The notes beneath the pieces are model-generated. The model was not told the origin of the DNA, did not search any database, and saw only the letters and a list, made by a program, of their open reading frames with translations. The position numbers and the translations under genes were made by a program. DNA of 64,000 bases from a virus, in IMG/VR virus record IMGVR_UViG_3300027708_000012, positions 1-64,000 of that record; one strand, 5' to 3'. Each line of letters opens with the position of its first letter. Within the stretch, counting starts at the first letter, position 1. Below are positions 11,445-21,232 of this stretch, piece after piece.

Positions 11445-12923
11445 TTACAAGTCGTCACTTGGCAAGTTATTCAACAGTTCTCTAAGTTTGCTTGACTCTA
11501 CATTGGCCTTAACCTTGGGCTTGGCTAGGTCAAATCCTTCTTTAGGGCTTGCACGTTCCCAACCGGTATCTTCTGTAGTTACAGTCTGTCGTTGTTTAAT
11601 ACTGTTTAGTAAAGTAGATCCTGCACTTTGACTGTTATGATTTCCATAACCATCTTCCTCACTTAGATCACTAATGCGTAGTGTGTCCACATTAAAATCC
11701 AAATCAATCTTCATACCAACACCGCTCGAGCTACGTGTTTTCATTAACTGGATTTGATAACGTCCACGCTCACGCATTGCACGACTTGTAAAGATACCAA
11801 ACACATTATCTGCTGTCTGAATCTTACTAAGTCCACCCGAGATATGACTGTGATCAAACTCAACTTCTTCAACAGCACCTCGATTCAACTGTGCCGCTGT
11901 AACAAACACACAGTTCTTTTCCACCGCCAAATTACGCAGTTCTTCACTCACATACTTGTCTTTGACAAACAAGTTTTCAGCACTAATACGCTTGCTCAAA
12001 GGTAGTAGCAAGTCCATGTAGTCAACTAACAGTACGTCAATCTTACGTCCCATTTTGATTTCATACTCTTTCATATAAGCACGAATATCGTTTGCTGTCT
12101 TACCACTTGGCATATACTTGACTTGGAACTGGCCAGACTTCTTGCCAATCATTTTAACTTTCATTTCAACATCATCGATGCTCTTGAAAATCTCTCTTGT
12201 AGGTATTCCAGTTACCATTGCATCCACACGCAAGCTAACTAATTCTTCACTCAACTCTAGTGTGAGATACAATACATTGTGACCAGCAAGGGCATAGTTA
12301 ACACCAAGGTTAGCCAAAAACAAGCTCTTACCAGCACCAGAGCCGCCAGCCCAGATATTAAGCTCACCGCGATTAAATCCTCCATACAACTTATCATCAA
12401 TGCTTTTCCAGCCTGTAGATATTTGTCCATTTTTATCCTTGATCTTCATAAGACGTGCTCTAGGATCAGCAAAGTAATCTGTGCCCATGTCACGTTGTAG
12501 TCCTACTTGTACTGCTTGTTTAATCTTTTCTTCCACCGGACCATACTCGCCTTTTTCCAACAAGTCCGCCGATTCTAAGATTGCTCGCTCAAGTCCTTTG
12601 TGACGAGTAAACGTTTCAAAGTCGTTGAGTAGCCATTCAAAATGTTCTTCACGCAAATCTGTGGCGGCTTTTAAATTTGATCCTGTGGCCGCATTAATAA
12701 TATCTGGCGTGGGCAATACATTATTTTCGCTTACATATTTGGTTAAAAACTCCGCGGAATCCTGTAGTCTGCGATCAAATAGTTTACTATCAAAAATACT
12801 TTGACAGCGTACAAATGTACCAGCATCTGCCAACATCATCTCTAAATAGACACGCTGAATATCGTAGCCATAGTCTACGTTTTGTCTTGCTTTATCTTTC
12901 TTGTTATCGTTATAATCACTCAT
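11445..12923 (-). CDS. gp41: Replicative DNA helicase, DnaB/gp41 type (492 aa)
   Basis: A DnaB-like hexameric helicase of the T4 gp41 family that moves 5'-3' on the lagging strand with primase. Residues 1-145 form the N-terminal helical domain. The RecA-like motor carries Walker A GGSGAGKS (193-200), Walker B VLLVDYMDLL (about 300), and FVTAAQLNRG followed by SKIQTADNVFGIF, the conserved motif of DnaB walker/arginine-finger regions. The C-terminal 60 residues are polar, as in phage homologues. A sigma70-like promoter (12929-12957) lies just upstream, and the primase gene is close by in the same orientation. Confidence 0.95.
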   Translation of the reverse strand: MSDYNDNKKDKARQNVDYGYDIQRVYLEMMLADAGTFVRCQSIFDSKLFDRRLQDSAEFLTKYVSENNVLPTPDIINAATGSNLKAATDLREEHFEWLLNDFETFTRHKGLERAILESADLLEKGEYGPVEEKIKQAVQVGLQRDMGTDYFADPRARLMKIKDKNGQISTGWKSIDDKLYGGFNRGELNIWAGGSGAGKSLFLANLGVNYALAGHNVLYLTLELSEELVSLRVDAMVTGIPTREIFKSIDDVEMKVKMIGKKSGQFQVKYMPSGKTANDIRAYMKEYEIKMGRKIDVLLVDYMDLLLPLSKRISAENLFVKDKYVSEELRNLAVEKNCVFVTAAQLNRGAVEEVEFDHSHISGGLSKIQTADNVFGIFTSRAMRERGRYQIQLMKTRSSSGVGMKIDLDFNVDTLRISDLSEEDGYGNHNSQSAGSTLLNSIKQRQTVTTEDTGWERASPKEGFDLAKPKVKANVESSKLRELLNNLPSDDL

Positions 12924-12928
12924 ACGCT

Positions 12929-12957
12929 ATTATACTCTCTTTATACATTAATTGCAA
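12929..12957 (-). promoter_or_regulatory. Sigma70-type promoter for helicase
   Basis: Read on the minus strand: TTGCAA (12952-12957), 17 bp, TATAAT (12929-12934), with the ATG at 12923. It overlaps the 3' end of the carbamoyltransferase gene. Confidence 0.8.
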
Positions 12958-13888
12958 TGTGTTTGACAAGATCCCACTTATAATCCCATACTCTCTGTTT
13001 GGTATGATATAATACCGCTCCAATGCTACTACTAGGATCTCCTGGGTTAGGTAAACTCCATCGATATTTAAATTTAGATTCAACTACGTTTTTGTTGGCT
13101 TGACTATTCATAGCACAACCTCCCATGTAGACTAGACAGTCGGCGTTGGTTAGTTGTTTAGCTTTGAGCATGATACCAGATACTTGCTCCTCAAACACTA
13201 GTTGTACTGCGGCCGCCAGGTCACATTGTTCCTGTAAGGTAGTTAATTCATTAAGGTTCCAATTAAGGACTCCCTGATGAAAATTAGTATTACAGCGCAA
13301 TTCACCTGCATCAAAGTAACTTCTAACATACTGTAAAAATTTGTAAGGATCGCCTTGCTCTGCCATTTTTTGTAATAAGTATTCATCCTTGATAGGAGTC
13401 AAGCCAACAAATTGTGTAAAGGCACTATAAAATAATCCTAGACTATGTGGATAACTTCTGCTCCACACTTTCTTCATTTCACCGTGTAGCCCTTGCCATA
13501 TGGTAGCACATTCAAATTCTCCGATCGCATCGAGCACAACAATCGCACAATGATTAAACGGGCTTGTATAATAGCCAGCGGCAGCGTGACTACTATGATG
13601 AGGAGTATAAGAAACTTTTGCATATTTAAATTGTTTAAGATGACGTTTTGGTAGTGTAGACATATCAAACGCTGTACGATATTGTCCAGCATACAATTGT
13701 CTTGCTTTTTTAATCCACGGACGTTCGTACCAAAAAATACGATCCGGACTTCCATAGTTTAATGCTGGCACAGTTTGCGAACTATCTAGTTCGTCGTACT
13801 TGCTAATAGTCTGTGATACTAGTTTACCCTCTTTGAATACAGCAAGACTTGAGCCGTGATTAAGAGCATTTATCCCCCAGTGTATCAT
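12941..13888 (-). CDS. Short carbamoyltransferase-like protein (NodU/TobZ N-domain, 315 aa)
   Basis: MIHWGINALNHGSSLAVFKE matches the start of the NodU/CmcH/TobZ family, and YTPHHSSHAAAGYY (94-107) holds the HHxxHA motif that binds the metal and acyl-adenylate. LDAIGEFECATIW, LQKMAEQGDP and VYMGGCAMNSQANK are further family blocks. The YrdC-like C-terminal domain with its GPRALG motif, present in the second homologue at 62501, is missing: the frame ends after the first domain, at about half the usual length. Such one-domain forms would transfer carbamoyl but need another source of activated carbamoyl-AMP. Its start overlaps the 37-aa gene (ATGA). Confidence 0.85.
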   Translation of the reverse strand: MIHWGINALNHGSSLAVFKEGKLVSQTISKYDELDSSQTVPALNYGSPDRIFWYERPWIKKARQLYAGQYRTAFDMSTLPKRHLKQFKYAKVSYTPHHSSHAAAGYYTSPFNHCAIVVLDAIGEFECATIWQGLHGEMKKVWSRSYPHSLGLFYSAFTQFVGLTPIKDEYLLQKMAEQGDPYKFLQYVRSYFDAGELRCNTNFHQGVLNWNLNELTTLQEQCDLAAAVQLVFEEQVSGIMLKAKQLTNADCLVYMGGCAMNSQANKNVVESKFKYRWSLPNPGDPSSSIGAVLYHTKQRVWDYKWDLVKHIAINV

Positions 13889-13998
13889 TTGTAGATAAAT
13901 GGATCGCGTTTACGTAGTTCTTCTAGACGCTTTTTCCATGCCTTACGTTCTTTATACCATTTGATAGGATTTTGTAAAAAATTCCAAAATTCATACAT
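13885..13998 (-). CDS. Conserved 37-aa protein between primase and carbamoyltransferase
   Basis: MYEFWNFLQNPIKWYKERKA then WKKRLEELRKRDPFIYK. It is aromatic at the N-terminus and very basic, an amphipathic single helix. Its stop overlaps the carbamoyltransferase start (ATGA) and its start lies in the last codons of primase, which supports translation. I recall similar mini-proteins with a '..RDPFIYK' ending in T4-like aquatic phages, but no function. Confidence 0.65.
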   Translation of the reverse strand: MYEFWNFLQNPIKWYKERKAWKKRLEELRKRDPFIYK

Positions 13999-14989
13999 TG
14001 TCTATATCCTTAAACCATTGTTTAGCTCGTAATCTGATCTTAAGAGCATTTGATTCTTTAGCACTTACTATTAACCATAATGTTGCCAACCGACCTATTT
14101 TTATTACAGCATCATTTACATCTTTAACGCCTTCCGGCCAGTTGGGCATACTAACCGACCATCCATATTCTATAGCTTGTTCGATAGTCCGTGGGCCTTC
14201 GTGATCCTTGTCTGGCACTAAGACTAATTCTTTGCCCAACTGTTTAAGTAACCAGTTTTGACTATCTTTAATTTCTGCTCCAAGTATGGCGCAGGCATCA
14301 ATACTTAGCGCATCAAAGGGTCCTTCACATACAATTACGAGATCCCTATCGTCTGATTGATTATCAAGATTAAACACATAGCCAGGCTGTTGTTCGCTTA
14401 AATATTTTGGTTTTGCATCGCTAACTGAACGGGCGGTCCATCCTACTACTTCGCCCTTGTATAAGAAAGGAATTATAATTCTATTACTAAATCCTATTTT
14501 AGGAGTCCAGTAAAACGGATAACTTTTTGGATCTATATTTCTATCCAATAGATACTGAATGCATTTTTGAAAGTTTTCAGGAACTGAAAAATCAGATTCT
14601 GCAATTTGCTCTGCCCATTCAATCATACTAAGTGAATCCATTGGCAATGCACGAGAATCAAATTTAGGAATGATGCTACGGATTTCTGTAGTACTATTGT
14701 TATCTAGTCTAAGAGCCTCTAATCGTAACTGAGCAATTGTATCATCCGGAATGTTTAGATTCCGCATAAATTGATTCATCTTTTGACTAATGTGCCTGCC
14801 AGGTTGCCAAGAGCATTTGAATCCGCAATTGAAACAGTGATAGCTTACAGCATCTCCGCCATTAACAATGAATCCACCACGACCTCTATCATCATCACAA
14901 CAAACCGCGTTGAAGCTAATCCAACCGCTCGGAGTTGTTTTTCGCTTTCCGGGTAAGTAGTTTAATAGTGTGCTGGCAATAAGACTCAT
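13991..14989 (-). CDS. gp61: DNA primase, gp61 type (332 aa)
   Basis: T4-type primase that makes lagging-strand primers with gp41. An N-terminal zinc-binding module is formed by CC at 30-31, then YHCFNCGFKC (50-59). The TOPRIM core shows VIVCEGPFDALSID (glutamate motif, about 218-231) and LVLVPDKDHEG (DxD-type motif, about 255-265). Length is normal for the family. The promoter (14995-15023) sits immediately upstream. The downstream 37-aa gene and carbamoyltransferase are coupled to it. Confidence 0.93.
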   Translation of the reverse strand: MSLIASTLLNYLPGKRKTTPSGWISFNAVCCDDDRGRGGFIVNGGDAVSYHCFNCGFKCSWQPGRHISQKMNQFMRNLNIPDDTIAQLRLEALRLDNNSTTEIRSIIPKFDSRALPMDSLSMIEWAEQIAESDFSVPENFQKCIQYLLDRNIDPKSYPFYWTPKIGFSNRIIIPFLYKGEVVGWTARSVSDAKPKYLSEQQPGYVFNLDNQSDDRDLVIVCEGPFDALSIDACAILGAEIKDSQNWLLKQLGKELVLVPDKDHEGPRTIEQAIEYGWSVSMPNWPEGVKDVNDAVIKIGRLATLWLIVSAKESNALKIRLRAKQWFKDIDNV

Positions 14990-16150: not shown

Positions 16151-16157
16151 TATTTAT
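16151..16157 (-). promoter_or_regulatory. T4-type late promoter box
   Basis: CCATAAATACT on the minus strand, 21 nt before the ATG at 16129. It overlaps the first codon of the divergent gene at 16156. Confidence 0.7.
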
Positions 16158-16530
16158 GGCAAAATTAAGAGACAATATAGAACAAAATTTACCGTGGATT
16201 AGTGTAATTAACTACGGGGACAACGAATATGTTGGTATCATAATAAATCAGGACCAATATGTTACAAGTTTCTATGATTTAGACGCCATCAAAACTCCAG
16301 AAGAAAAATCTGCATTTTTAGAAATAGGTGAGATTTGGTGGTGGGAAAGCAATAGAACATTCCCAATTAATATTTTTTGTAGAGCTCAAATAGAACCGTT
16401 TTCTTACGCCATTAAAACTTTTAACAGCAAAGATACTCGCATTATATTAGGGCCTGTTGTAAATTTAATGAACTTAACATTAAAAAGAGTAAAGCGTAAA
16501 AGTGTACAATTAGTTAGAAAAGTTCGTTAA
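16156..16530 (+). CDS. Conserved T4-like phage hypothetical protein (124 aa)
   Basis: MAKLRDNIEQNLPWISVINY continues with GDNEYVGIIINQDQYVTSFY and EIGEIWWWESNRTFPINIF; the tail is basic (KRVKRKSVQLVRKVR). This pattern (..Y.GII.N.D....YD....EE...FLE.G..WWWESNR..PI.IFL) is common in T4-like aquatic phages with no known role. It is an isolated plus-strand gene among minus-strand neighbours; its stop overlaps the DnaE-like gene's stop by four nt. Confidence 0.75.
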   Translation: MAKLRDNIEQNLPWISVINYGDNEYVGIIINQDQYVTSFYDLDAIKTPEEKSAFLEIGEIWWWESNRTFPINIFCRAQIEPFSYAIKTFNSKDTRIILGPVVNLMNLTLKRVKRKSVQLVRKVR

Positions 16531-17102
16531 CTATATTCGTAACTTATTCGTTCGCAAATTAGATTCATCTGTACAACAATAGCATGGGCGTAACCAATAC
16601 TATGACTTTTCTTAAAACTATACTCTGCTGTCTTAGTCCAGATTTCATCGGCGATTGCCTGGAATCCTTTTTCCTTACATACTGGGATGAGGTGCTTTTT
16701 ACCAGGTCTGAGAAGTGCAAGGAACATGGCTAGCTCCTCAATATTTTTAGGTTTTAAATCTGCAATTAAATTATGATAGCCGTTTACATGGAATATCATA
16801 TCACAAAATTCTTTTTGTTCTAATAAATCCCACAGAGGTTCTTGATTTAATAATTGTGTCAAATGCTCTTTACTCTTGACACCTTCGTATACACTTACAT
16901 TTAAGAAATCAATCTTAAAATAGCCGCGATCTTCCGCTGTTTTATAATCTAATGTACTAATTCCATCAACAGGATTATACGGAATAGAAGTACAATATAT
17001 TCCAGTATTGTGTTTTTTAGAAATATCAATTCGTGCGTCGATATGCTTTAGTACATTTAAAGCTCGTGTTCTATCTGCAAAATCAATATCAATATCTGGC
17101 AT
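16527..17102 (-). CDS. Miniature DNA polymerase III alpha (DnaE)-like protein (191 aa)
   Basis: MPDIDIDFADR (1-11) is the PDIDxDF catalytic-aspartate motif of bacterial C-family polymerases. YFKIDFLNVSVYEG (61-74) matches the following 'KFDFLGLKTL' block carrying the third aspartate, LALLRPG (128-134) matches the 'aLyRPG' block and FKKSHSIGYAHA (163-174) matches 'FNKSHAxxYA'. The order is as in DnaE, but with only about 190 residues against roughly 1,160, so PHP, most fingers, beta-binding and OB parts are missing. It could be a mini-palm pseudo-polymerase or regulator. It overlaps the 59-aa gene upstream. Confidence 0.75.
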   Translation of the reverse strand: MPDIDIDFADRTRALNVLKHIDARIDISKKHNTGIYCTSIPYNPVDGISTLDYKTAEDRGYFKIDFLNVSVYEGVKSKEHLTQLLNQEPLWDLLEQKEFCDMIFHVNGYHNLIADLKPKNIEELAMFLALLRPGKKHLIPVCKEKGFQAIADEIWTKTAEYSFKKSHSIGYAHAIVVQMNLICERISYEYS

Positions 17103-17268
17103 TATCTATTTTCTTCCATTGGTACTTGCCTTCAGTTGTATGAGGCGTATAAGTTTCTCCAGTTTCTTTATCAATTAATATCCACTTAGCAGGACATTTA
17201 GTTTTAATTGTTAAAATTTTTGGTTTGTCTAGTTCATCAACAACAGTTCCATCTTGTAATGTTCTCAT
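17089..17268 (-). CDS. Conserved small protein (59 aa)
   Basis: MRTLQDGTVVDELDKPKILT then IKTKCPAKWILIDKETGETY and a tail with KYQWKKIDNARY. The 'CPAKW.L.D..TGE.Y' pattern occurs in small T4-like phage proteins. It is too short for many gene callers but both ends overlap neighbours (start inside the zinc-finger gene, stop 14 nt into the DnaE-like gene), as is usual in this operon. Confidence 0.7.
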   Translation of the reverse strand: MRTLQDGTVVDELDKPKILTIKTKCPAKWILIDKETGETYTPHTTEGKYQWKKIDNARY

Positions 17269-17966
17269 ATATTCGACTCTTTAACCACTTCTTTAACCAG
17301 TGCTGCATCTGCCGGCATTTTCTTAAATTTGTTTAACCAAAAAGATAAATCAATTATATTTTGTATATGTCCTAATTGCTCATCACTAAATTTCTTTAGC
17401 ATGTCTTTTCCATTGCTGCTGTTTAGTATTACCCAAGGACTAATTTTTCCATCTTTAATGTCATAGCATGCACGGCTTAAACTTACATATAAGAAATAAT
17501 GATTCCACGATGCGTTGTGTGCATCACCCCAATCCATCATTGTTTGGAGCGACCTTTGGAGGGCGGTTTCGACGGTTTCTCTTCTGATAAGGTCGAGGAC
17601 GTATTGTTCGTAGAGTTCGTCTCTGCACCAATGGTCCAGCTTGACTCCAGACGTGACCACATAGTCGATAAATTTTTCCGGGTAGAGAGGATTGACGTTA
17701 CTGACAAAACTACCAAACTTAATAAAAGCGTTATAATAAGGACTTTTACAAAAATCTTCATATGTTTTTTCCTGTGTGCTTTGAGGTTGTGCCCTACGAT
17801 AAAATCTTAGAAATGTATCGTATGCTAACACCACATGTCGTTCTTTACGTGCCAAAGCCCGACGTTTTTGTTCGCATATATGCACACCCAATGTAGTTTC
17901 TTTAGTAAAACCTACATTACAATAGCCACATATATAAGGTCTTGGTATAGTAACTAAACTCATCAT
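17265..17966 (-). CDS. C2H2-type zinc-finger protein of T4-like phages (233 aa)
   Basis: Residues 13-31 form a finger: CGYC, 11 residues, then HIC (CGYCNVGFTKETTLGVHIC), followed by a basic EQKRRALARKERHVVLAYDT. The rest is helical (YEQYVLDLIRRETVETALQR). This protein type (finger plus about 200 residues) is a core hypothetical of T4-like aquatic phages. A role in transcription or late gene control is possible but unproven. Coupled by ATGA overlap to the 2OG oxygenase upstream. Confidence 0.78.
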   Translation of the reverse strand: MMSLVTIPRPYICGYCNVGFTKETTLGVHICEQKRRALARKERHVVLAYDTFLRFYRRAQPQSTQEKTYEDFCKSPYYNAFIKFGSFVSNVNPLYPEKFIDYVVTSGVKLDHWCRDELYEQYVLDLIRRETVETALQRSLQTMMDWGDAHNASWNHYFLYVSLSRACYDIKDGKISPWVILNSSNGKDMLKKFSDEQLGHIQNIIDLSFWLNKFKKMPADAALVKEVVKESNI

Positions 17967-18490
17967 TTTTTAGTATTAAAATTAAAATTTATAACTATTC
18001 TTTTTTTATAACTAGTCGGAGAAGAACTAGCATGTTTAATACGTCCGTCAAATATTACTGCACGACCAGCAACTGGGTCAACTTGTTTGATAATTTCATT
18101 TTTATCATTGTAAAAATATGTCGGGCCATCGGAATCGATCACATAGTATAACATTACTAAATGTTCAGAGTCCCAGTCTATATGTGGATTATGTATTCGT
18201 TGTGATTCTTTTATTGTAAACAATCCTGCACGTATTCGTTCAACACTATGTACTGGAACATTTGCTTGTTCAGTTGCTATAAACAATATTGCCATCATTA
18301 TATCAGTCATAGGACTGTGGGTATTGATATCTTTAAAAACATGTGCCCAGCCTTCAGTTTGTACCTCTGCATTTATTCCGGCAATATCGTCAATATAAAA
18401 CCATGGTATTCCGTTATGCGTTAGAAAGATATCTTGTAGATATCTTTGTAAACTTTTAGGCACCGCATTATCAACTATACTAATCATCAT
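17963..18490 (-). CDS. 2OG-Fe(II) oxygenase (175 aa)
   Basis: A small 2-oxoglutarate/Fe(II)-dependent dioxygenase. The facial triad is visible as NPHIDWD (H103, D105) and RIKHASSS (H153), with R164 in KKRIVINF for 2OG binding; LYYVIDSDGPTYFYN gives the connecting strands. T4-like aquatic phages carry several of these, with unknown substrates (protein, nucleic acid or metabolite). It is embedded in a tightly overlapping operon, 19759 down to 16527. Relatives in this window: 40247-40765 (intact) and 55109-55690 (degenerate). Confidence 0.88.
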   Translation of the reverse strand: MMISIVDNAVPKSLQRYLQDIFLTHNGIPWFYIDDIAGINAEVQTEGWAHVFKDINTHSPMTDIMMAILFIATEQANVPVHSVERIRAGLFTIKESQRIHNPHIDWDSEHLVMLYYVIDSDGPTYFYNDKNEIIKQVDPVAGRAVIFDGRIKHASSSPTSYKKRIVINFNFNTKK

Positions 18491-19765: not shown

Positions 19766-21232
19766 TTATTTTTGCCAATCCGTTTTATCTAAAGTAAACG
19801 GATATTTGGCTTCCTTGTAAAATTTCTTACGTTCAGTAAGATGCCGTTTGGCCCATTTGCAGGTGCTAGTCAAGTCCCAAATTTGGACAAAGTCTTTGTC
19901 TTCTGCTTTTCTAATACCTCGCCCAATGCTTTGTATAACTCTAACAAAGCTCTTTCCGGGCTCCAGAAGAACCAGATTAAAAATACGAGGGATATTAATA
20001 CCAACAGCGGCCACACCAAAAGTCGCCACAATAACCTTGTTATTACTTGTTTTAATTTCATCGTATTCTTCTTTTCGATCTGTTGTTTTGACAGCACCTG
20101 ATATGAAGACAGCGTCTTCTAATTCATTTACTAAAAATTTGCCTGAGTCAATTCTATTTACGAGAACAAGTGTATTGCCTGAGTTGCTTATTGTTTTAAT
20201 TAATTTGCTAATGTATCTCATTCTATCTTCGTTAGTAACAAGATACTTTAATTCTTCTGGATATGTTTTAAATTCAGGTAAATCTATTAACTGAACTACA
20301 TTTACATGACAGTTAGACAGTACGCCTTTTTCCTGTAACTCATGTGCTTTAATGCCGCCTACGACTGGTCCAATGCTAGCAAATATTGGCTCAGCTTCAT
20401 AATCTGCTTTAGGAACAGTTCCAGTTAGTCCCCAACGAATTGGCGCATTACATAGATTTTGTGTGAGTAAATTTTTAAGTACATCTGCTTTAGCCATGTG
20501 TACTTCGTCGACAATTACTGTTTTAACATCTGCCAAAAATTCTGCAAGACTCATGATATCATATTCATGATTTTTACTTTTTTTATCAAATATGTTAAGA
20601 CTTTGCCATGTACAAATAGTATGTGTTTTATCAAGATTCTTTCGGTCGCCGTAGTAAACGCCCACATCTAATCCAACATTAATAAAATCTTCCTCTGTTT
20701 GTTCAACTAGACTTTTGTTAGGTACAATAGTTATTGTCCGGCCATATTTTTCAGCAAGGTGACTCAATGTTGCTGTAGTAATTGTTTTACCAGCGCCGGT
20801 AGCAATTTCTTGCAATGCTTGTGTATTGGTTAAAAATGTATTGATTGCATCAACTTGATAATCACGCAACATAATAGGTTGACCTTCTTGTTGGTGACCT
20901 TTTGGCCAAACTTTGCCTAAGTCGGCCCAGTAAGATTCTGTTACAGGCGCAAACTGAATCTTGCTAGTTGTTCGTAAATCTTCTAATTCGCCTACATCAA
21001 TATCCATGTCCCCAAGTATACCTAAACACTTCTCAAGTTGACTTAGGTACCCATTGCCGCCGAGGCCAAACATTGATACTTTGCCATCCCAACGGCCTAG
21101 TTGATAAGCTGGTCTATACCTTGCTGTAGGATCTAAATATTTAAAAGTTGCTGTTAATTTTTTACGGGCTTCTAGCGATAACCCTTCAAATTTAATATTA
21201 ACTTCGTCTTTGATTACTAGTTTTACAGTCAT
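19766..21232 (-). CDS. uvsW: UvsW recombination DNA/RNA helicase (488 aa)
   Basis: Superfamily 2 helicase of the T4 UvsW type, which resolves recombination intermediates and removes R-loops, switching off origin replication. Visible motifs: MLRDYQVDAI (Q-like), EIATGAGKT (Walker A, 142-150), VIVDEVHMAK (DEVH box, about 240), GLTGTVPK, and IQSIGRGIRK (motif VI). The N-terminal 100 residues (YQLGRWDGKVSMF) match the UvsW N-terminal domain. It overlaps the 21229 gene by four nt. Confidence 0.94.
   Translation of the reverse strand: MTVKLVIKDEVNIKFEGLSLEARKKLTATFKYLDPTARYRPAYQLGRWDGKVSMFGLGGNGYLSQLEKCLGILGDMDIDVGELEDLRTTSKIQFAPVTESYWADLGKVWPKGHQQEGQPIMLRDYQVDAINTFLTNTQALQEIATGAGKTITTATLSHLAEKYGRTITIVPNKSLVEQTEEDFINVGLDVGVYYGDRKNLDKTHTICTWQSLNIFDKKSKNHEYDIMSLAEFLADVKTVIVDEVHMAKADVLKNLLTQNLCNAPIRWGLTGTVPKADYEAEPIFASIGPVVGGIKAHELQEKGVLSNCHVNVVQLIDLPEFKTYPEELKYLVTNEDRMRYISKLIKTISNSGNTLVLVNRIDSGKFLVNELEDAVFISGAVKTTDRKEEYDEIKTSNNKVIVATFGVAAVGINIPRIFNLVLLEPGKSFVRVIQSIGRGIRKAEDKDFVQIWDLTSTCKWAKRHLTERKKFYKEAKYPFTLDKTDWQK

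Follow-up and report, generated by a model that had tools for sequence, protein, structure and literature searches.

How can a protein of 191 amino acids (aa), about one sixth of the length of Escherichia coli DnaE (1160 aa), carry the motifs of the alpha subunit of DNA polymerase III (Pol III alpha), and what would it do in a giant phage? The question is raised by a gene in the stretch of 64,000 nucleotides analysed here (the window), which covers positions 1-64000 of the IMG/VR virus record IMGVR_UViG_3300027708_000012 (G000; 345,369 bp), whose gene content is that of a T4-like jumbo phage. The locus belongs to a known kind, the split minimal Pol III alpha that was described in jumbo phages of group 2.2 from genome comparison (Iyer, Anantharaman, Krishnan, Burroughs, Aravind 2021, Viruses 13:63; PMC7824862). 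The window gene encodes the C-terminal part (C-half); together with an N-terminal part (N-half) encoded elsewhere in the virus, it very probably forms a two-chain minimal C-family nucleotidyltransferase core with an assembled Pol-beta-type site, as judged from sequence comparison.

16527-17102, minus strand: C-half of the split minimal Pol III alpha (P0001, phrog_11778), 191 aa, with catalytic D3, D5 and D65, K63 and reduced fingers

A short gene with the motifs of DnaE

The open reading frame (ORF) starts with ATG, slightly downstream of a purine-rich GGAAG, and its product contains PDIDIDF, KIDFLN, LRPG and FKKSHSIGYA in the same order as DnaE, which confirms on a 191-aa minus-strand ORF what the initial annotation had described. 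It matched phrog_11778 ('DNA polymerase', E = 1e-58), and tblastn searches with it reached bacterial DnaE directly, with E-values down to 1e-8. Tblastn detected relatives in 90 phage records, including PA5oct, Paride, RaK2, 121Q, GAP32, CBB, Atu_ph07, Phosso, XacN1 and SCTP-2, and the matches spanned 80% or more of the query in 88 of these records. In IMG/VR, a relative is encoded in 554 stretches or more. Among 64 aligned relatives, the invariant positions were D3, D5, D7, H31, G34, K63, D65, R132, P133, H167 and Y171. D3, D5 and D65 correspond in the alignment to D401, D403 and D555 of E. coli DnaE, its established catalytic aspartates, so that the presence of all catalytic aspartates, proposed for this one protein, extends to its homologues.

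In cellular genome contigs, one stand-alone C-half was found among 34 extracted matches (of the 80 best), the other 33 being full-length DnaE or long stretches of it; a cellular origin or a broad bacterial presence of these short proteins was rejected on these grounds. The lone case lies on a 6.8-kb contig of a Bacteroidales metagenome-assembled genome (JAHEYR010000170.1), probably a phage contig binned with its host.

The missing palm segment is encoded by a distant gene

Searching the whole virus with PF07733 revealed a second gene for a DnaE palm, encoding 169 aa (phrog_11127; G000:192532-193041, minus strand), about 175 kb from the C-half and outside the window. The match (G000:192535-192765, profile positions 19-95; on the protein, positions 18-94 with E = 8e-12) was stronger than that of the C-half, which aligned weakly to profile positions 98-114. 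This N-half corresponds to the part of the palm just upstream of PDIDIDF and carries the nucleotidyltransferase GRGSS (GS) motif, which occurs in no C-half. It ends in ...VGRGSSVASFVLYLLGVHQIDSVKYNLDWQEFLR and the C-half begins with MPDIDIDF; E. coli DnaE has this stretch uninterrupted in one chain.

Both halves were aligned, profile to profile, with 33 full-length DnaE sequences. Residues 50-169 of the N-half matched residues 257-393 of E. coli DnaE (E = 1.5e-12), and on the C-half MPDIDIDF matched residues 399-406, residues 49-140 matched 539-649 (E = 1.3e-8) and residues 135-182 matched 724-774. Since the pair thus tiles residues 257-393 and ~399-774, its halves are, by alignment, consecutive and non-overlapping segments of DnaE. 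Nearly all of the 80 N-half ORFs stopped at the same [DE]F[LFM]R. Fused or adjacent halves were absent among 80 N-half and 91 C-half loci, where the two genes never lay within 6 kb of each other. In genomes with both halves, their spacing ranged from 15 to 224 kb.

Intein trans-splicing was considered and rejected, as no intein sequence stands at the end of the N-half (...EFLR) or at the start of the C-half (MPDIDIDF). A self-sufficient miniature polymerase was also rejected, because the GS motif and the first palm segment are encoded by the other gene. The motifs, aspartates and length on which the initial annotation had based its miniature DnaE therefore stand, but the protein is not a palm sufficient in itself; the accompanying suggestion of a reduced palm working with other subunits was right in essence, the missing palm part lying in a gene that co-occurs in every near-complete genome tested.

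Conserved active site and missing domains

When 33 bacterial DnaE sequences and 15 phage pairs were aligned together (E. coli numbering), all 15 pairs kept G359, R362, G363 and S364 on the N chain, and D401, D403, D405, H511, P527, K553, D555, L557, P625, R639, P640, H760 and Y764 on the C chain. The Pol-beta-type palm, with the GS motif and three catalytic aspartates, was complete only when both chains were combined. Neither chain has the PHP domain, the thumb, a complete set of fingers, or the clamp-binding and C-terminal domains of the C-family: the DnaE parts missing from the pair are residues 1-256 (PHP domain), ~410-510 (mainly thumb) and ~650-723 (the finger part with YQEQ and RRAMGKK), as well as the whole of DnaE after residue 774. 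No PHP, HHH_6 or further finger fragment was found elsewhere in G000, and in the other 14 paired genomes, searched with PF17657 only, the matches lay within the C-half itself, apart from marginal ones. Given this conservation of the active site with thumb and finger residues gone, the chemistry of the pair is probably intact, and the duplex grip and some nucleotide and template contacts are probably changed.

AlphaFold models of the single chains, built from natural alignments, had a predicted local distance difference test score (pLDDT) of 87.9 for the N-half and 77.8 for the C-half. In the latter, the fingers were confident (pLDDT mostly 80-97) and the palm strands uncertain (50-65), as expected if this palm part needs a partner. 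The first 12 Foldseek matches in the PDB were all C-family polymerases for each half, and all Pol III alpha for the C-half, with weak E-values. In the PDB, the sequence profiles of the two halves matched complementary residues of Pol III alpha chains and no other proteins. Neither observation that the initial annotation had named as refuting its reading, an unrelated fold or homologues lacking the aspartates, was made.

Co-occurrence and selection

Both halves were present in 15 of 15 near-complete genomes, namely 11 of 11 complete reference phages and the IMG/VR records G000, G001, G004 and G010 (the last three >200 kb), whereas records <175 kb had one half only, as expected of fragments. In the phage collection, at least 46 of the 60 listed C-half records were among the listed N-half records (60 of 140). 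A B-family polymerase was encoded in all 15 paired genomes, that of G000 being an 889-aa, gp43-like enzyme complete with its exonuclease (phrog_262, E = 1e-197). The halves of the window virus shared 26-51% (N) and 37-68% (C) identity with those of the other 14 paired genomes. Median omega was 0.11 for the C-half and 0.12 for the N-half, and both genes are under purifying selection. Expression data were looked for, and none were found for either half. By these comparisons, two consecutive segments of DnaE have kept their aspartates and GS motif, and their genes have been kept together.

A chance resemblance, or a decaying fragment of full-length DnaE, could be suspected from the short length and from the weak Pfam scores of the C-half alone. 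This reading, to which we give practically no weight, is refuted by the purifying selection, the fixed junction, the profile E-values and the existence of hundreds of relatives equal in length.

Many small phage proteins target host replication, and the absence of large parts of the enzyme could likewise point to a regulatory or decoy protein, either a dominant-negative mimic of host Pol III alpha, as the initial annotation had offered, or a binding module without catalysis. Such a role is very improbable: a mimic would be expected to keep host-binding surfaces and to lose catalysis, and the pattern is the opposite one, with the metal-binding aspartates, GS motif and other active-site positions invariant at an omega of ~0.1, and with the PHP domain and the segments beyond 774 missing. 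Alpha contacts the host clamp, tau and epsilon, the proofreading subunit, through regions that the pair lacks; the family is restricted to phages, with conserved synteny among replication genes, and a decoy would leave the partner gene unexplained.

Genomic surroundings

The C-half belongs to a conserved block with the order uvsW, several small genes, small ORF, C-half, convergent small ORF, structural gene, primase and DnaB-like helicase. Its members in the window include:

11445-12923, minus strand: DnaB-like replicative helicase of the T4 gp41 type
13991-14989, minus strand: DNA primase (phrog_47, Toprim), neighbour in the conserved block
16156-16530, plus strand: convergent 124-aa ORF (phrog_11637, function unknown), its 3' end overlapping the 3' end of the C-half by 4 nt
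17089-17268, minus strand: 59-aa ORF directly upstream of the C-half, matching the C-terminus of phrog_4098, its 3' end overlapping the start of the C-half by 14 nt
19766-21232, minus strand: UvsW-like DNA helicase (phrog_16), upstream border of the conserved block

Translational coupling of the 59-aa ORF and the C-half is likely, and a small ORF immediately precedes the C-half in most relatives. The convergent small ORF was found at the same position in 11 of 11 annotated phages examined, distant jumbo phages included, with one extra ORF between in XacN1, which also departs from the block order downstream. The N-half heads a block of its own, followed by an ORF of ~100 aa, a GroES-like protein and, directly or after one small ORF, the gp44 clamp loader; G000 has the same order. 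In PA5oct, the gene after the chaperonin is annotated as hypothetical only, and mass-spectrometry notes stand on several neighbouring gene products and on neither half, which gives no sign of the halves being virion proteins.

Other genes were also recorded. Between the DnaB-like helicase and the primase, positions 12941-13888 (minus strand) encode a carbamoyltransferase N-terminal domain (PF02543, E = 1e-28; phrog_1601). The protein at 17963-18490 (minus strand) matched phrog_274, labelled 'DNA endonuclease V'; Pfam and an HxD...H...R pattern indicate a 2-oxoglutarate-Fe(II) oxygenase, and the PHROG 274 name looks wrong for it. A 389-aa Na+/H+ exchanger (PF00999, E = 2e-23), unusual in a phage, is encoded at G000:165090-166259 (L090:7090-8259, minus strand), near a UDP-glucose dehydrogenase-like gene and an oxidoreductase gene.

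Function of the pair

Most likely, the pair serves the T4-like replisome as a nucleotidyltransferase of two chains or as a short-tract polymerase. The first palm segment, with the phosphate-binding motif GRGSS, would come from the N-terminal chain, and DxDxD, KxDFL and the remaining fingers from the C-terminal one; the heterodimer would fold into one Pol-beta-type palm performing two-metal nucleotidyl transfer. Less surely, it may assist the replisome of B-family polymerase, clamp loader, primase and helicase as an accessory enzyme that adds short stretches, for example by extending primers before hand-over to the B-family polymerase or by filling gaps or lesions. Once a two-chain core is granted, such templated short-tract DNA synthesis is rather probable, and non-templated or other nucleotidyl transfer appears clearly less so. 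A role as processive replicase is unlikely, because the thumb, PHP, clamp-binding and tau-binding parts are missing.

A palm-derived enzyme with a new activity, also raised by the initial annotation, is possible. One such reading, which we consider rather doubtful, is that the two chains no longer copy a template and reuse the DnaE palm for end-tailing of DNA or RNA or for modifying small substrates. The thumb and the YQEQ...RRAMGKK segment are gone from all 15 pairs and the catalytic residues stay, the phage owns a complete B-family polymerase with exonuclease, and residues not found in DnaE have become invariant, such as K135 replacing P642. However, the finger residues R639-P640, H760 and Y764 as well as K553 are kept in 15 of 15 pairs, and both genes lie among replication genes.

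Several points weigh against a two-chain polymerase of the replisome. The thumb and the finger residues Y686, Q687, E688, Q689, D706 and R709 are absent in all 15 pairs, N757 is replaced by K or R, P642 by K and R390 by E or D in phage pairs; given these changes, substrate or template use may differ from that of DnaE. None of the Foldseek E-values was below 0.001, and the models are of single chains, so that the heterodimer itself is a step we infer. Several records are fragments, in which co-occurrence cannot be judged. The divergence of the two halves was correlated (mirror-tree r = 0.92), a value that has no control gene, that shared ancestry alone would also give and that was not used as evidence of interaction.

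Origin of the split

In a maximum-likelihood tree of 300 columns with very long branches, the split phage proteins stood on a very long stem beside full-length phage DnaE, grouping with the Nyseid/SPbetaL7 type (ultrafast bootstrap, UFBoot, 97). By the approximately unbiased test (p-AU), a position with PolC, outside all DnaE, was mildly rejected (p-AU = 0.03) and another grouping was not (0.22); IQ-TREE flagged the number of replicates in this test as too low. Their motifs are of DnaE and not of PolC type. The tree leans towards an origin by reduction.

In Staphylococcus phage SpP (PP468606.1:26864-31773), an SPbeta-like gene for a DnaE-type polymerase is interrupted by an annotated intron-associated endonuclease ORF. 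The interruption lies between ...AIDYDLPYWR and ...LNKDRPEMADIDID, just before MADIDID and within ~10 residues of the jumbo-phage junction; the endonuclease ORF is GIY-YIG-type (assigned by eye), and the insert gave a weak group I intron match (RF00028, E = 1.3e-4, below the Rfam gathering score). A Met precedes PDIDIDF in 24 of 34 DnaE, so that a start codon for the C-half would have been ready in most of them. Taken with the apparent intron of SpP near the junction, this makes breakage by a mobile intron a plausible route to the split. The full scenario, which we advance tentatively, would be a trans-assembled two-chain polymerase or nucleotidyltransferase born when an intron or homing endonuclease broke a phage DnaE at the conserved Met-PDIDIDF, followed by loss of the thumb and other domains, and dedicated to primer extension or gap filling as the partner of a B-family replisome.

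Iyer et al. (2021) read the split as an ancestral two-protein polymerase predating the assembly of DnaE (PMC7824862). That the pair is such a relic, and not a reduced and fragmented DnaE, would agree with its consisting of hardly more than a core nucleotidyltransferase and template-binding parts, its phage-specific distribution and its B-family partner (PMC7824862). We regard it as unlikely, since the split proteins join full-length phage DnaE in the tree and grouping with PolC is mildly rejected, their motifs are of DnaE type, and in SpP an apparent intron breaks the polymerase gene close to this junction.

Comparison with known systems

Nothing essential separates this pair from the split Pol III alpha of Iyer et al. 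(PHROGs 11127 for the N- and 11778 for the C-terminal protein), beyond its occurrence in an uncultivated virus with diverged halves. The C-terminal protein carries the metal-binding aspartates (invariant in 64 sequences), the N-terminal, NTP-binding part is a separate gene ~175 kb off in G000, a B-family polymerase stands alongside, and no other Pol III alpha domains (PHP, HHH_6, further fingers) were found in G000. Atu_ph07, placed in group 2.2 by Iyer et al. (PMC7824862), has both genes of the pair as well. Searches of open-licence papers gave no experimental follow-up. New beyond the 2021 study are the exact junction, the linkage to clamp-loader and helicase-primase loci, the interrupted gene of SpP and a tree leaning to reduction.

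With bacterial DnaE (PDB 2hnh, 2hpi, 3e0d, 4iqj, 5lew, 7pu7), the pair shares GRGS, DxDxD and KxDFL of the palm and RPG and KSHxxxYA of the fingers. Unlike it, the pair consists of two chains totalling ~360 aa against 1160, without PHP, thumb, YQEQ...RRAMGKK, OB and clamp- or tau-binding parts. The DnaE-like proteins of Lactobacillus phage Nyseid and Bacillus phage SPbetaL7, its nearest tree neighbours on long branches, are full-length, as is that of SpP, whose two parts are neighbours on either side of an apparent group I intron carrying an endonuclease gene.

The role of such pairs has been a standing question since the 2021 genome survey. An active two-chain enzyme would be the smallest C-family polymerase core known to us, and its catalytic centre would be shared by two polypeptides. 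Such an enzyme would reveal what a bacterial replicase palm can do once it is stripped of the thumb, PHP and clamp-binding parts, and for what reason giant phages retain a C-family enzyme in addition to their own B-family polymerase.
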